Position numbers and translations under genes: made by a program
Assembly (NCBI GenBank): GCA_019744975.1
Contig: JAIETP010000021.1
Span: 1-48,896 of the forward strand
Length of the DNA: 48,896 bases
Source: Burkholderiales bacterium
GTDB lineage: Bacteria; Pseudomonadota; Gammaproteobacteria; Burkholderiales; SG8-41
Direction of reading: 5' to 3'
The notes under the pieces: model-generated
What the model was told of the DNA's origin: nothing
Database searches by the model: none
Seen by the model: only the letters and a program-made list of their open reading frames with translations
Shown: piece by piece, positions 2,995-48,747 of the stretch
Layout: each line of letters starts with the position of its first letter
Position numbering within the stretch: position 1 is the stretch's first letter

Positions 2995-3091
2995 GTGAAC
3001 GGGCGAACGAGTGAACGAGTGAACGAGTAAAACAAGCAGCCAATCCGTAGGGGGGGGCTCCCGTTCACCCGTTCACGTTTCACTCGTTCAC
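2995..3091. repeat. GTRA-octamer inverted array, locus A (hrcA/hemH gap)
   Basis: The left arm 2995-3034 has five units in strict 8-bp phase: GTGAACGG, GCGAACGA, GTGAACGA twice, GTAAAACA. After a 26-bp spacer the right arm 3061-3091 has the complements CCGTTCAC twice, GTTTCAC and TCGTTCAC. The arms can pair into an imperfect hairpin of about 30 bp in the hrcA-hemH transcript. Confidence 0.8.
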
Positions 3092-3096
3092 CGGGT

Positions 3097-4188: not shown

Positions 4189-4272
4189 TGCATTGTTTTT
4201 AATGGGTTTCAACGGCACCGGGCGCCGAAGAATTATGGTTTAATGAGCGTCGAACAAAACAGCGGGTGACGC

Positions 4273-4320
4273 TCATCCCTCACCCCCGACCCCTCCCTTG
4301 AGGGCGAGGGGAGATGAGAG
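4273..4320. repeat. REP-like C-rich palindrome in the nadK leader
   Basis: A C-rich left half (CTCACCCCCGACCCCTCCC) is followed by a G-rich right half (GAGGGCGAGGGGAG), folding as a stem-loop just before nadK. It resembles the palindrome nested in locus C at 14863-14907, so the two are probably members of one REP-like family. Confidence 0.5.
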
Positions 4321-4364
4321 ATGAGCATGCATGTCCGCATGCTCACGAATCAACAACGGCCACC

Positions 4365-5249
4365 ATGCCCATTGCATTTCCCACTGTTGCACTGATCGGC
4401 AAATACAAGACGCCGGAGATTGCCGGGCCGGTGATGAAGCTCGCGCGTTTCCTCGAGGAGCGCGGCGTGAAGGTGCTGCTCGACCGGCTGACCGCAGCGC
4501 ATATCCAGAATTGTCCGTACGAAGTGCTGCTGCTGGAAGACCTCGGTCGCGAAGCGGATCTGGCGATCGTCATCGGCGGCGACGGTACCATGCTCAACAT
4601 TGCGCGCACGTTTGCGCCCTGTGATGTGGCGTTGGTGGGTGTCAACCAGGGGCGTCTCGGCTTCCTCACCGACATTTCGCTGGACACCATGTTCGAAACC
4701 ATGACCTCGATCCTCGACGGCCAGTACGTGACCGAGGAGCGCATGCTGCTGCAGTCCGAAGTCTGGAGTGGCAGCAACGGCAGCGGCCAGGAATGCGTGT
4801 TCGACGTGCTGGCCTTCAACGATGTGGTGGTGGCCAAGGGTTTTCGTGGCGGTCTGGTTGAAATCGAAGTGCAAATCGACGGCCAGTTCATCTACAACCA
4901 GCGTTCCGACGGTTTGATCGTGGCCACACCCACGGGTTCGACGGCTTACGCGCTGTCCTCCGGCGGCCCGATTGTGCATCCGGCACTGAGTGTGATGGCG
5001 CTGGTACCGGTGTCGCCGCATACGCTGTCCAACCGGCCGATCATCATCAGCGGCGACAGCACCGTTGAAATCGTCGTGCGCAGCGCCGACGACCCGCGTG
5101 CGCATTTTGACAGCCATTCCCATTTCGACCTGCGCGAGAACGATCGCGTGGTCGTGCGCCGTTATCCGCACAAGATCAAGCTGCTGCATCCCGTGGGCCA
5201 CAGCTATTACGCGATGCTGCGTGAAAAGCTGCACTGGAATATGGACTGA
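4365..5249 (+). CDS. nadK: NAD kinase
   Basis: NadK phosphorylates NAD to NADP in the cytosol. I take the ATG at 4365 (MPIAFPTVALIGKYK), giving 294 residues like E. coli NadK; an in-frame ATG at 4314 only adds a tail encoded by the REP-like leader. GGDGT at 71-75 is the diagnostic active-site loop, GRLGFLTD follows at about 94-101, FNDVVV corresponds to the NE-type motif, and TPTGSTAYALSSGGPIV is the second nucleotide-binding signature. It is divergent from hrcA. The stop is 4 bp before the left octamer array of the S23/IVP element. Confidence 0.95.
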   Translation: MPIAFPTVALIGKYKTPEIAGPVMKLARFLEERGVKVLLDRLTAAHIQNCPYEVLLLEDLGREADLAIVIGGDGTMLNIARTFAPCDVALVGVNQGRLGFLTDISLDTMFETMTSILDGQYVTEERMLLQSEVWSGSNGSGQECVFDVLAFNDVVVAKGFRGGLVEIEVQIDGQFIYNQRSDGLIVATPTGSTAYALSSGGPIVHPALSVMALVPVSPHTLSNRPIIISGDSTVEIVVRSADDPRAHFDSHSHFDLRENDRVVVRRYPHKIKLLHPVGHSYYAMLREKLHWNMD

Positions 5250-5253
5250 ATGC

Positions 5254-5293
5254 GTAAATGCGTGAGCGGGTGAACGAGTGAACGGGTGAACGA
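5254..5293 (+). repeat. Left octamer array of locus B
   Basis: Five perfectly phased 8-bp units: GTAAATGC, GTGAGCGG, GTGAACGA, GTGAACGG, GTGAACGA. The sixth unit would begin at 5294, and its GTG is the start codon of the S23/IVP gene. Confidence 0.85.
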
Positions 5294-5659
5294 GTGGCCC
5301 ATATCAAGCGTAAGCACAGGGATCTGCTGGTCTGGCAGGAGTCGGTTAACCTGACTGTTGCGATCTATGGGATTACAGAGTCATTTCCGAAATCTGAGCT
5401 GTTTGGGCTGACCTCACAACTGAGGCGATCGGCTGTATCGGTACCCGCCAATATTGCTGAGGGTGCGGCTCGTTCGGGAACAGCGGAACTTCTGAGGTTT
5501 TTGAGCATCGCCAATGGTTCGTTGTCCGAAGTGGACACGCATCTCGAAATTGCGGATCGGCTGGGCTATCTCCCCGACAGGAAAATACTGGATGAAAAGG
5601 TTGAGCGGGTATTTCGCTTGTTGTCTGGTCTAATCGCATCTTTAAAGAAAAAGCGTTGA
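5294..5659 (+). CDS. Four-helix bundle protein, S23/23S rRNA IVP family
   Basis: A 121-residue, mostly helical protein. DLLVWQESVNL (10-20), FPKSELFGLTSQLRRSAVSV (31-50) and PANIAEGAAR (51-60) are the signature of the S23 family, known from intervening sequences of 23S rRNA genes and related in fold to the Avd accessory protein of diversity-generating retroelements. The molecular function is not established. No in-frame ATG exists, and an in-frame TGA at 5279-5281 closes the upstream frame, so the GTG at 5294 is the only sensible start; it belongs to the repeat array itself. No good Shine-Dalgarno is visible. It is not inside an rRNA gene here but is flanked by inverted octamer arrays. The basic C-terminus (SLKKKR) could touch nucleic acid, which is inference. 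Confidence 0.85.
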   Translation: MAHIKRKHRDLLVWQESVNLTVAIYGITESFPKSELFGLTSQLRRSAVSVPANIAEGAARSGTAELLRFLSIANGSLSEVDTHLEIADRLGYLPDRKILDEKVERVFRLLSGLIASLKKKR

Positions 5660-5671
5660 CGCATGCCAATG

Positions 5672-5710
5672 CTGTTTACCCGTTCACCCGTTCACCCGTT
5701 CACGGCTCAC
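5672..5710 (-). repeat. Right octamer array of locus B
   Basis: CTGTTTAC, then CCGTTCAC three times, then the heptamer GGCTCAC: the inverted complement of the left array. The recN start codon is 4 bp beyond it. Confidence 0.85.
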
Positions 5711-5714
5711 TAAA

Positions 5715-7376
5715 ATGCTTTGCCGTCTCACCATTCAGGACTTCGTCATCGTCGAGCGCCTGGAGCTCGAGTTTGGCCCGGGCTTTACCGTGCTCACGGG
5801 GGAAACCGGCGCCGGCAAATCCATCCTGATTGATGCGCTGGCGCTGACACTGGGTGAACGTGCCGATGCCATTGCGGTGCGCCAGGGCGCGGCCCGCGCC
5901 GATGTCACCGCGGAATTCGATACGGAAGGTAACAAGCCACTGCAGTCATGGCTGACCGATAACGACTTGGCCGGCGACGAAGGCACATGCCTGTTGCGAC
6001 GTGTGGTTGAAGCCTCGGGCCGTTCGCGCGGTTTTATTAATGGCCATCCCGCCACTGCGGCACAGCTGCGCGGGGCGGCTGATTTCCTGGTCGACATCCA
6101 TGGCCAGCACCAGCATCAGTCGCTGAGCCGTCCGGCGACGCAGCGCGCGTTGACCGATGCTTATGGCGGCATGGCGGCACAGGCGGAACTGGTGGCCGAC
6201 CACTGGCGTACCTGGCAACGGCGGCGCGAGGAGCGGCTGGCGTTTGAGGGCAATGCAGCGGCGATCAAGGCCGAACGTGAACGTTTCGAATGGCAGTTGC
6301 AGGAACTCGATGCGCTGAAGCTTGAGCCCGGAGAATGGAGCAAGGTCGGCGCGGAACACGCGCGACTGGCGCATGCGGCCAGCCTGATTGAGGCGGCGCA
6401 GGCCGGTGTGGAAATGCTGACCGAAGGCGAGGGTGCGGCGCTGGCGCAGTTGAACAGCGTCATTGCCCGCTTGCGGCCCTTGCTGGCGCATGATGCGCGG
6501 TTGAAAGACATCCTCGACGCGCTGGAGCCGGCGCAGATCCAGCTGCAGGAGGGTGCCGGCGCGCTGCGCCGTTACGGCGAACGCACCGACCTCGATCCGC
6601 AGCGCCTGCGCGAGGTTGAACAACGACTTGATGCTTTGCATGCCGCCGCGCGCAAATACCGCGTTGATGCTGATGCGCTGCACGAACTGGCTGAACACAC
6701 GCGGCAACGGCTGGCGGAGCTTGGCGCCGGTGGCGACCCGGAAACCCTGCGCGCGCGCGAAACCGAAGCCGAATCGGCGTATCGCGAGGCCGCGAAAAAA
6801 CTGACGGCGGGCCGCAAAAAGGCCGCGAAAAAACTGGCTGATGCGGTCACTGCCGGCATGCAGGAGCTGGCGATGAAAGGCGGCGTGTTTGAGGTTGCAC
6901 TGGAGGCTCTGGAAACACCGGCTGCGCATGGCCTCGAACAGATTGAATTCCGCGTCGCACCCCACCAGAGCATGACGCCGCAAGCAATCGCCAAAACCGC
7001 TTCCGGCGGCGAACTGTCGCGGCTGTCGCTGGCGATACAGACGGTGCTGAGCCGCGTGGCGCGGGTGCCGACGCTGGTGTTTGACGAGGTCGATGTCGGC
7101 ATCGGCGGCGGTGTCGCCGAAATTGTCGGCCGCATGCTGCAGTCGCTGGGCGGCAAACACCAGGTGATGTGTATCACCCATCTGCCGCAGGTGGCGGCTG
7201 CCGCCGATCAGCAGTGGCAGGTGCGCAAGGTGACGGTCGGCGGCAAGCCGGCCTCGGCGGTGGTGGCGCTGGATGCCAAGGCGCGTGTCGAGGAAATCGC
7301 GCGCATGCTGGGCGGCGTGAAAATCACTGACACCACGCGCAAGCATGCGGCGGAGATGCTGGGTGTCAGAAAATAG
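5715..7376 (+). CDS. recN: DNA repair protein RecN
   Basis: RecN is an SMC-like ATPase acting in recombinational repair of double-strand breaks. The 553 residues match the family. The start MLCRLTIQDFVIVERLELEF is the classic RecN N-terminus, Walker A GETGAGKS is at 29-36, a long charged coiled-coil arm fills about 160-370, the ABC signature is SGGELSRLSLAI, and Walker B is LVFDEVDVGIGG near 453-464. The ATG at 5715 follows the right octamer array directly. In relatives recN often adjoins fur; here an EAL-domain gene and a repeat-bearing gap lie between them. Confidence 0.96.
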   Translation: MLCRLTIQDFVIVERLELEFGPGFTVLTGETGAGKSILIDALALTLGERADAIAVRQGAARADVTAEFDTEGNKPLQSWLTDNDLAGDEGTCLLRRVVEASGRSRGFINGHPATAAQLRGAADFLVDIHGQHQHQSLSRPATQRALTDAYGGMAAQAELVADHWRTWQRRREERLAFEGNAAAIKAERERFEWQLQELDALKLEPGEWSKVGAEHARLAHAASLIEAAQAGVEMLTEGEGAALAQLNSVIARLRPLLAHDARLKDILDALEPAQIQLQEGAGALRRYGERTDLDPQRLREVEQRLDALHAAARKYRVDADALHELAEHTRQRLAELGAGGDPETLRARETEAESAYREAAKKLTAGRKKAAKKLADAVTAGMQELAMKGGVFEVALEALETPAAHGLEQIEFRVAPHQSMTPQAIAKTASGGELSRLSLAIQTVLSRVARVPTLVFDEVDVGIGGGVAEIVGRMLQSLGGKHQVMCITHLPQVAAAADQQWQVRKVTVGGKPASAVVALDAKARVEEIARMLGGVKITDTTRKHAAEMLGVRK

Positions 7377-13711: not shown

Positions 13712-14854
13712 GTGTCCTCGCGTACGCCCGCCATTCTCATGCTGAAGGATGGCACGGTATTTCACGGCTCTGCGATCGGGGCTGAAGGGCTCGTTGCCGG
13801 CGAAGTCGTGTTCAATACAGCGATGACCGGTTATCAGGAAATCCTCACCGATCCGTCGTATTGCCGGCAGATCGTGACCCTGACCTATCCGCATATCGGC
13901 AACACCGGCGCCAATGCCGAAGATGTTGAATCGGAGAAGATCCAGGCCGCCGGTCTGGTGATTCGCGACCTGCCGCTGCTGTCCTCGAATTTCCGCGCAA
14001 CCTTGACGCTGGGTGATTACCTGAAGCGTGAAAAGATCGTTGCGATTGCCGACATCGATACCCGCAAGTTGACCCGCCTGCTGCGCGACAAGGGTGCGCA
14101 GGACGGCTGCATCATGGCGGGCCGGGTTGATGAAAAAGCAGCGCTCAAAGCCGCCCGCGAATTTCCGGGGCTGGTCGGCATGGACCTGGCCAAGGTGGTG
14201 TCCTGTAAAGGCCCGTACGACACCGATGAGACCGTGTGGCAGCTGGGTTCGGGTTACGGCAAACGCACGGAAGCGAAATTTCATGTTGTTGCCTATGATT
14301 TCGGCGTCAAGCGCAACATCCTGCGCATGCTCGCCGCGCGCGGCTGCAAACTGACGGTGGTGCCGGCACAGACGCCCGCTGCCGAGGTGCTGAAACTCAA
14401 ACCCGACGGCGTGTTCCTGTCCAATGGACCCGGCGACCCGGAACCCTGCGATTACGCGATCCGTGCCATCCGCGAGCTGCTGGATGCCGGTGTGCCGCTG
14501 TTCGGCATCTGCCTCGGCCACCAGCTGCTCGGCCTGGCCTGTGGCGCGAAAACGCTGAAAATGAAATTCGGTCATCACGGCGCCAACCATCCGGTGCAGG
14601 ATCTCGAATCGAAGCGGGTCATGATCACCAGCCAGAACCACGGTTTTGCGGTGGACGCGGCGACGCTGCCGGCCAATGCCAAGGTGACTCACGTATCGCT
14701 GTTCGACGGCAGCCTGCAGGGCTTCGCGCTGACCGACAAACCGGCGTTCTGTTTCCAGGGGCATCCGGAAGCGAGCCCGGGACCACATGATGTTGGTTAC
14801 CTTTTCGATAAATTTATGGAACTGATGAAGGGCGGTGAACGGGTGAATGGGTGA
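13712..14854 (+). CDS. carA: Carbamoyl-phosphate synthase small subunit
   Basis: CarA hydrolyses glutamine and passes ammonia to CarB for carbamoyl phosphate (arginine and pyrimidine synthesis). The start is GTG at 13712, with AGGAG 6 bp upstream. The product has 380 residues. The N-terminal CPSase domain ([20 protein letters not shown]) is followed by a class I glutamine amidotransferase domain with the nucleophile in [12 protein letters not shown] (about 264-275) and the His/Glu pair in GHPEASPG near 350. The last codons (GERVNG and stop) are encoded by the first two and a half units of octamer array C, so the repeat has replaced or extended the native 3' end. Confidence 0.96.
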
Positions 14855-14955
14855 ACGAGTGAGCCCCCTCTCCCCGACCCTCTCCCCCGGTAACGGGGGA
14901 GAGGGGGTAAGTCCCGGGGTTACCCGTTCACCCGTTCACCTGTTCACCCGTTCAC
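14835..14955. repeat. GTRA-octamer inverted array, locus C (carA/carB gap)
   Basis: The left arm has GTGAACGG (14835), GTGAATGG (14843) and GTGAACGA (14851) in 8-bp phase, overlapping the carA 3' end. The right arm, 14924-14955, has CCGTTCAC twice, CTGTTCAC and CCGTTCAC. Between them lies a REP-like palindrome (14863-14907). The carB start is 8 bp beyond the right arm. Confidence 0.85.
14863..14907. repeat. REP-like palindrome nested in locus C
   Basis: CCCTCTCCCCCG (14878-14889), loop GTAA, CGGGGGAGAGGG (14894-14905): a perfect 12-bp stem. The C-rich lead-in (CCCCCTCTCCCCGACCC) is like that at 4273-4320. Confidence 0.75.
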
Positions 14956-21948: not shown

Positions 21949-21966
21949 GCGCGCCTGCGGCGCGCT

Positions 21967-22060
21967 GTGAAGGAGTGAATGTGTGAAGTGGTGAATGGGT
22001 AACGGCAGTTGTGCCGGTTTTTATTCACTTCTTCACTCCTTCACCTATTCACTCGTTCAC
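21967..22060. repeat. GTRA-octamer inverted array, locus E (ftsH/folP gap)
   Basis: The left arm 21967-22006 has GTGAAGGA, GTGAATGT, GTGAAGTG, GTGAATGG, GTAACGGC. The right arm 22021-22060 has TTATTCAC, TTCTTCAC, TCCTTCAC, CTATTCAC, TCGTTCAC. Both are five units in perfect 8-bp phase around a 14-bp loop. folP starts 1 bp after the array. Confidence 0.88.
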
Positions 22061-48638: not shown

Positions 48639-48641
48639 ATG

Positions 48642-48726
48642 GTGATTAGGTGATTAGGCACTCGCACCGCCCTCCAATTACTTGGTTACCTGATTACTTA
48701 ATCACCAGTTACCAGTCACCAATCAC
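48642..48726. repeat. GTRA-octamer/heptamer inverted array, locus F (iscA/sufB gap)
   Basis: The left arm has GTGATTAG twice (48642-48657). The right arm has four octamers (CCAATTAC, TTGGTTAC, CTGATTAC, TTAATCAC from 48674) then three heptamers (CAGTTAC, CAGTCAC, CAATCAC to 48726). The unit differs from the other loci but keeps GTRA/TYAC ends, and TTAATCAC mirrors GTGATTAG. Confidence 0.82.
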
Positions 48727-48747
48727 CGGTTTTTTACGGAAACGGAA

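Follow-up and report, generated by a model that had tools for sequence, protein, structure and literature searches.

Inverted arrays of short repeats enclose S23 family genes and are dispersed as gene-free pairs in a Burkholderiales genome

The gap between nadK and recN in a Burkholderiales bacterium raises the question of why a small gene of the S23/IVP family should begin within one array of short repeats and be followed by the complementary array. We analyzed this locus in a stretch of 48,896 nucleotides (the window), which is contig C24 of a 3.69-Mb genome, here called G000, and compared it with relatives of the same genus, G001–G020, which together with G000 make 21 genus genomes. Beyond the nadK stop codon, read from the sequence at 5247–5249, a left array on the forward strand (5254–5293) consists of five phased GTRA octamers of the GTGAACGR type: GTAAATGC (5254–5261), GTGAGCGG (5262–5269), GTGAACGA (5270–5277), GTGAACGG (5278–5285) and again GTGAACGA (5286–5293). 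The S23/IVP gene (23S_rRNA_IVP, four helix bundle; 5294–5659, forward strand, 121 amino acids) starts with the GTG at 5294, which belongs to a sixth array unit and is the sole in-frame start found, and ends with a stop codon at 5657–5659. Its product belongs to the family by its matches to PF05635 (E = 4.6e-35, 120.5 bits against a cut-off of 33.8) and TIGR02436 (E = 3.9e-35). The right array (5674–5710, reverse strand) is the inverse complement of the left, extending from 5674 to 5703 and then to a final TCAC that ends at 5710, and TRF detects the arrays on both sides of the gene. The recN ATG stands at 5715, and four bases separate the arrays from their neighbors on both the nadK and the recN side, the two neighbors being identified by Pfam matches. 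A preliminary description had noted the phased octamers leading into the only possible start codon, the complementary array beyond the stop and the four-base spacing, and all of these are exact. It had also proposed that the arrays are the ends of a small mobile element whose protein may bind them as REP-associated proteins bind REPs, a proposal that holds in some parts only.

Arrays of this kind are a regular feature of S23 genes. PF05635 matches were found at four places in G000; by eye, all are inside inverted arrays, each with a different unit (GTGAACGR, GTGATTAR, GTGATGA and GGATTGA), the second arm of the GGATTGA locus being weak, at about two units. With 40 relatives added, 16 of the 41 genomes have a PF05635 match, 15 of them over the cut-off. 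The units GTRAGCG, GGTRATT, GTTCCAA, GCAAGAR and AGCTGAY were also seen by eye, uncounted, beside S23 genes at loci L063–L089, several of which are truncated by contig ends; at one of these loci, L077, where the PF05635 hit is below the cut-off, no array was seen by eye. The sole S23 match of G018 contains a stop codon.

We then asked how far the association extends, using the best 80 of 582 S23 loci from a scan of named genomes. These come from Pseudomonadota, Bacteroidota, Acidobacteriota, Planctomycetota, Chloroflexota, Nostoc, candidate phyla and others, and five of the 80 have a stop inside the matched stretch. An array was scored when flanks of at least 150 bases gave an inverted match of at least 12 together with an array of period 7–9 on at least one side, and same-length stretches placed elsewhere in the same loci served as controls. 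Among these best 80 of 582, the rule held for 50 of 76 S23 genes (26 did not satisfy it) and for 14 of 1,927 control placements (Fisher test, 3e-67). The preliminary description had reasoned that an absence of arrays from S23 genes elsewhere, if joined by the same nadK–recN gene with divergent flanks in all relatives, would mark the association as chance; such an absence did not occur. The two arms also correspond: in the 79 two-flank loci of the same best 80, the match of the left arm to its own inverted right arm outscored 95% of mismatched pairs at 59 loci and 99% of them at 39 (Mann–Whitney p = 2.6e-34), whereas same-strand comparison of the arms stayed near background (median 8.5 vs 8.0; 9 of 79 over the 99% line). 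Among arrays scoring at least 9 in this set, the period was 7 in 44 left and 38 right arms and 8 in 12 and 9, other periods accounting for 3 and 4. The arrays therefore go with S23 genes across phyla, which is neither chance nor a local peculiarity, and their units vary between S23 genes yet agree between both arms of one gene.

Other samples of S23 genes were also surveyed. Six plasmid genes were read from 37 matching plasmid records; by eye, five have inverted arms and the sixth has an inverted pair on one side. Three plasmid genes (L305, L307 and L308) lie between ribonucleotide reductase subunits in Nostoc and inside cas clusters in Pseudanabaena (cas6–cas4) and Picosynechococcus (cas10–cmr3). 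A phage collection gave no S23 match at E 1e-5, and at 18 loci whose inverted match is weak or absent, neither rRNA nor any other Rfam family was matched in the stretches searched. A control of random 206-bp windows from the same loci was dropped in favor of matched pairs and gene-length placements; its 99th percentile lies at 32.6 because a few of the windows contain long arrays, and 12 of 79 genes from the best 80 of 582 exceed it on either side and 4 on both.

Because units differ between genes, we compared them with the proteins, using only the left arm against the inverse right arm, a score of at least 14 as a match, and 103 of 110 genes; one of these loci, L194, is apparently the same as L071 (G010; near-identical protein) and is not independent of it. 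Matching units occurred in 1.3% of pairs below 35% S23 identity, 7.5% at 55–60%, 23.5% at 60–70% (85 pairs), and 75% and 67% in the classes above 70% (4 and 12 pairs). A Mantel comparison of protein identity with unit similarity gave a weak correlation (rho 0.036, p = 0.084, a value reached by 84 of 1000 permutations). The percentages suggest that units tend to be common to S23 proteins that resemble one another. In an S23 tree of 106 of the 110 rows, built on few columns and with many open forks, one clade with AGGATT-type units joins Chitinophaga, two Betaproteobacteria and two members of the source family.

A closer view of unit change comes from five Lysobacterales in which an S23 gene occupies the identical place between genes that we take, by recognizing their protein ends, to be accB and accC. 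The units are GGGAATC/GGGATTC in four of them and GTGATT in Luteimonas cucumeris (L171). Compared with L159, where the GGG type is present, L171 has GTGATT in three of four left and four of four right units, the difference falling at one and the same position of the unit. Since both arms have changed, this is a concerted change around an orthologous S23 gene. The Xanthomonas vasicola member of the accB–accC group matches XCC0516 (PDB 2gsc) with E = 9.7e-51, a close homology that places this solved structure within the GGGAATC system.

The tie between array and gene is not exclusive: it stands for S23 genes generally, although array pairs free of any gene occur in the same window. One GTGAACGR pair lies at the hemH–hrcA junction (2995–3092), a second between carA and carB (14834–14955), where it gives carA its stop codon, and a degenerate GTGAACGR-like pair (21966–22060) has an ftsH-type gene (AAA plus peptidase M41) on one side and the gene of a pterin-binding enzyme on the other. 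As RNA, all three fold far better than shuffles (z = −3.7, −8.6 and −7.1, respectively). A mosaic pair (48641–48727) has a left arm of the 8-mer GTGATTAG and a right arm of octamer units together with 7-mer GGTRAYT units. In the whole of G000, a three-unit GTGAACGR pattern occurs at no fewer than 24 places by our own grouping, one of which is the S23 locus; the elements read there are about 60 to 160 bp long, many with a CCCTCTCCCC/GGGGAGAGGG core. An automatic search of 325 kb from 20 genus genomes, comprising the window and syntenic stretches, found 16 inverted pairs and 0 direct pairs, and backward control patterns gave at most one match per genome and strand (4 for a looser pattern). Gene-free inverted pairs are thus dispersed between genes, as REPINs are.

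Several other repeat forms were seen among these elements. The CCCTCTCCCC...GGGGAGAGGG hairpin is a recurrent core at L043, L048, L054, L056, L059 and L061, and a similar hairpin stands alone between hrcA and nadK (window 4270–4330; G000, G018, G007 and G019), which suggests a second family of repeats nested within the arrays. Another family of inverted arrays, built on the 9-base unit CACAGAGNN, occurs at the L055 and L061 sites in G005, at the L051 site in G005 and G018, and at G000:C4:34199-34315. It is frequent in the G005 stretches read, and none of the S23 genes seen carries this unit. Arms mixing 7-mer and 8-mer units (GGTRAYT, GTGATTAR, GGTRATG) are found at window 48641–48727 and at L300, a site on G005:C27.

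Relatives show at which junctions elements have been gained. At nadK–recN in the 21 genomes, read by eye, G000 and G005 have S23 with GTGAACGR arrays; G018, G020, G014 and G019 have GGTRATT-type pairs; G010, G004 and G001 have GTRAGCG-type pairs; and the other 12 have a spacer of about 5–40 bp with no clear array. The gap considered in the preliminary description is thus filled with S23, empty, or occupied by a different unit. At hemH–hrcA, compared by eye in 16 relatives, the GTGAACGR pair is present only in G000; G005 and G018 have no array, G010, G014, G004 and G001 have one-sided GTRAGCG-type arrays, and G019 has a degenerate one. At carA–carB (11 relatives), the two genes share an overlap of 8 bp in G018, G020, G010 and G004; in G016, G006 and G013 they almost abut, and in G017 a 62-bp spacer free of arrays lies between them. 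The element parts the two genes in G000 and G005 and provides the carA stop; the same is done in G001 and G019 (L128 and L132) by an inverted pair whose unit is 10 bases long (CGCAGATAAA-like). Given the overlap in relatives, the direction is gain at an empty junction, twice, by different units. At about 90% identity, the edges of the junctions are blurred with respect to a target-site duplication, the hallmark that a MITE of a DDE transposon would show together with a parent transposase having the same ends. For the gene-free sites, carA–carB favors repeated insertion over replacement of units in situ.

Such repeated occupation extends beyond carA–carB. Of 23 G000 sites, 21 were readable in G018 (L050 and L058 have no usable G018 sequence), and automatic detection found array pairs at 10 of these 21 and at 0 of the 65 remaining orthologous gaps (p = 1e-7; 1 of 66, p = 8e-7, on counting a flagged gap which is one of the G000 sites), a background that may be somewhat low because the gap survey mis-cut some gaps, with ORFs running into arrays, and missed, for example, the G018 pair at L061. 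By eye, 12 of the 21 carry arrays in G018, two of them one-sided and all of another unit, and one additional site has decayed arrays of G000's own unit. The gap survey alone gave co-occupancy that was not significant for G018 (p = 0.14) and a value of p = 1.5e-6 for G005 that comes mostly from shared same-unit elements. The excess in G018 indicates that certain junctions have been struck repeatedly.

The gains that can be placed through empty relatives are gains of gene-free array pairs. The S23 genes themselves, the accB–accC orthologues among them, look long-resident and maintained by purifying selection: dN/dS for the G000–G005 pair is 0.045 at dS 0.54, it lies between 0.04 and 0.19 in four further genus groups taken as orthologous, and it is 0.136 at dS 1.6 in a fifth; comparisons with L089 are void, being out of frame. 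The suggestion of a mobile element finds its support in the array pairs without a gene, gained where relatives are empty, rather than in the S23 gene, which looks long-resident. An alignment of S23 proteins shows polar residues that do not vary, the invariant positions being R45, S49, N53, E56, G57, S76 and E79. To our knowledge, S23 has no motif of a nuclease or polymerase.

If gene and gene-free arrays are connected, unit counts should follow the S23 gene with the corresponding unit, whose bearers we assigned by eye from the flanks. Matches to two GTGAACGR units number 73 in G000, 37 in G005, 10 in G009 and 0–2 in the remaining 18 genus genomes, and only G000 and G005 carry an S23 gene with this unit. 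For pairs of GTGATTAR, bearers have 35, 27, 26 and 3 and non-bearers up to 28 (G007, no S23); for GTRAGCG, 74, 21, 2 and 1 against up to 112 (G001, no cognate S23 found); and for GGTRAYT, 76 and 37 against up to 410 (G018, no cognate S23 found). The fit is clear for GTGAACGR and poor for GTRAGCG and GGTRAYT. Cognate S23 went with higher counts for the four units in one-sided rank tests (0.0027, 0.0039, 0.013 and 0.065), with a combined permutation p of 1e-4 that treats the genus genomes as independent, and the presence of any S23 went with total unit counts (p = 0.0013); since these are related, incomplete genomes whose assemblies are broken at arrays, the statistics are support rather than proof.

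Taken with the analogy to known systems, these results lead us to a model, which we regard as somewhat more probable than its competitors combined, in which S23 would be the trans-acting partner of dispersed inverted short arrays, much as in REPIN–RAYT systems and with an unrelated protein. REPINs are reported to be hairpins made of two inverted repeats and scattered through intergenic space, and RAYT a vertically kept gene flanked by its repeats, with repeat type tied to protein lineage (PMC3116915, PMC8049555). The analogy drawn in the preliminary description fits: in both cases there is a kept gene between its own repeats, there are gene-free inverted doublets at gene junctions, and repeat type is tied to lineage. 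The differences are that the S23 protein is unrelated to RAYT, the window S23 having no domain other than PF05635 at E up to 0.001 and no Y1 HUH transposase domain, and that S23 arms are tandem 7–8-mers in variable number, whereas a REP is a single palindrome of 20–40 bp. In this model, a long-resident S23 gene placed between arrays of its own unit would encode a protein that recognizes that 7- or 8-base unit, probably several together, within the hairpin formed by the inverted arrays, as RNA or single-stranded DNA. The protein would then assist the copying of gene-free array pairs into intergenic gaps. Protein and unit would change together, giving each S23 lineage a unit of its own. Because no reverse transcriptase was detected in G000, our guess, and only a guess, is that host enzymes copy the arrays, by strand annealing or by template switching at the fork.

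A broader form of this model, which we put forward tentatively and with distinctly less confidence, is that S23 may be the core of a widespread repeat-writing system without a transposase or reverse transcriptase of its own, in which host replication or repair copies array pairs into junctions, specificity and units change in concert, and 23S rRNA intervening sequences and the heptamers of Xanthomonas and Nostoc are members. The Coxiella burnetii 23S rRNA intervening sequence is reported to have an S23 ORF within terminal inverted repeats that form a stem, with three tandem heptamers (GACAGAT) immediately 5' of the ORF (PMC4990558). The window S23 likewise lies inside terminal inverted repeats and behind tandem repeats; it differs in standing between the protein genes nadK and recN, in a window without an Rfam match, and in having arrays on both sides and many gene-free copies. 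With their heptamers and inverted stem, the rRNA intervening sequences would look like rRNA-resident members. Rehm et al. described intergenic 7-mer arrays of GGGAATC in Xanthomonas and GGGGA(C/T)T in Nostoc, with 70 convergent inverted pairs in X. campestris; they treated the heptamers as G-quadruplex repeats, generally without association with mobile elements (PMC4692102), and the terms "S23" and "four helix" are absent from the main text. Among our loci, the X. vasicola S23 gene closely related to XCC0516 carries GGGAATC arrays, and a Nostoc S23 gene carries GGGGAGT arrays. Beggiatoaceae have abundant intergenic arrays of TAACTGA, reported as 169 direct sets and one inverted (PMC4679880, whose main text does not contain "S23"); nearly all of these are direct, whereas S23 arrays are inverted. 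We found no published link between S23 and arrays in titles and the beginnings of abstracts, a search that covered few subscription papers or bioRxiv preprints.

The alternative that survives best, to which we would give about one chance in four were we to put it loosely, is that S23 is a domesticated nucleic-acid-binding regulator of RNA processing, stability or termination, with the arrays as its sites, spread by slippage, recombination and selection. Purifying selection on S23 at old sites and the highly stable hairpins at gene ends are what such a regulator would lead one to expect, and most Xanthomonas GGGAATC repeats are reported to be transcribed and to lie preferentially less than 50 bp from ORF ends (PMC4692102). 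This reading accounts poorly, however, for gains where relatives are array-free, one of which rewrote the carA C-terminus, for expansion in single lineages to hundreds of matches, and for gene-free copies between unrelated genes.

It is improbable that the arrays instead terminate independent mini-elements which some other enzyme moves, for example a Y1 transposase or RAYT, with S23 as mere cargo. Y1_Tnp (PF01797) does occur in 10 of the 21 genus genomes, with four matches in G000 and three in G005, but G010 (74 GTRAGCG matches), G020 (27 GTGATTAR matches) and G012 have no Y1_Tnp match, an absence that is not proof at completeness of 91, 93 and 98%. S23 is moreover found with arrays in many phyla, and units tend to track S23 similarity, which would not be expected of cargo.

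Retro-mobility, in which S23 would be Avd-like and the host would supply the reverse transcriptase, seems very unlikely to us. PF05635 resembles the Avd protein of diversity-generating retroelements, and the structures 4DWL and 2GSC are said to be homologous (PMC10053308). The reverse transcriptase family PF00078, which a diversity-generating retroelement would include, has matches in 3 of the 21 genus genomes and none in G000 or G005. Least credible of all is chance, or plain microsatellite slippage unconnected with S23: tandem arrays can grow by slippage and template switching can correct imperfect palindromes, but as an account of the association this is refuted by the 50 of 76 genes against 14 of 1,927 placements among the best 80 of 582 loci, and the preponderance of inverted over direct pairs (16 to 0 in 325 kb) and the near silence of the backward control patterns also speak against it.

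In summary, the model in which S23 partners dispersed inverted arrays would assign a large protein family, so far described just as "four helix bundle" or "S23", a role that experiments can test, and it offers a possible shared cause for heptamer arrays whose separate reports named none. The model makes a distinct prediction for every S23 gene, namely its own target word, and so lends itself to simple tests of binding; a structure has already been solved for one such protein (XCC0516, 2gsc). If the spread of the arrays depends on S23, bacteria would possess a further repeat-dispersal system, unrelated to RAYT.
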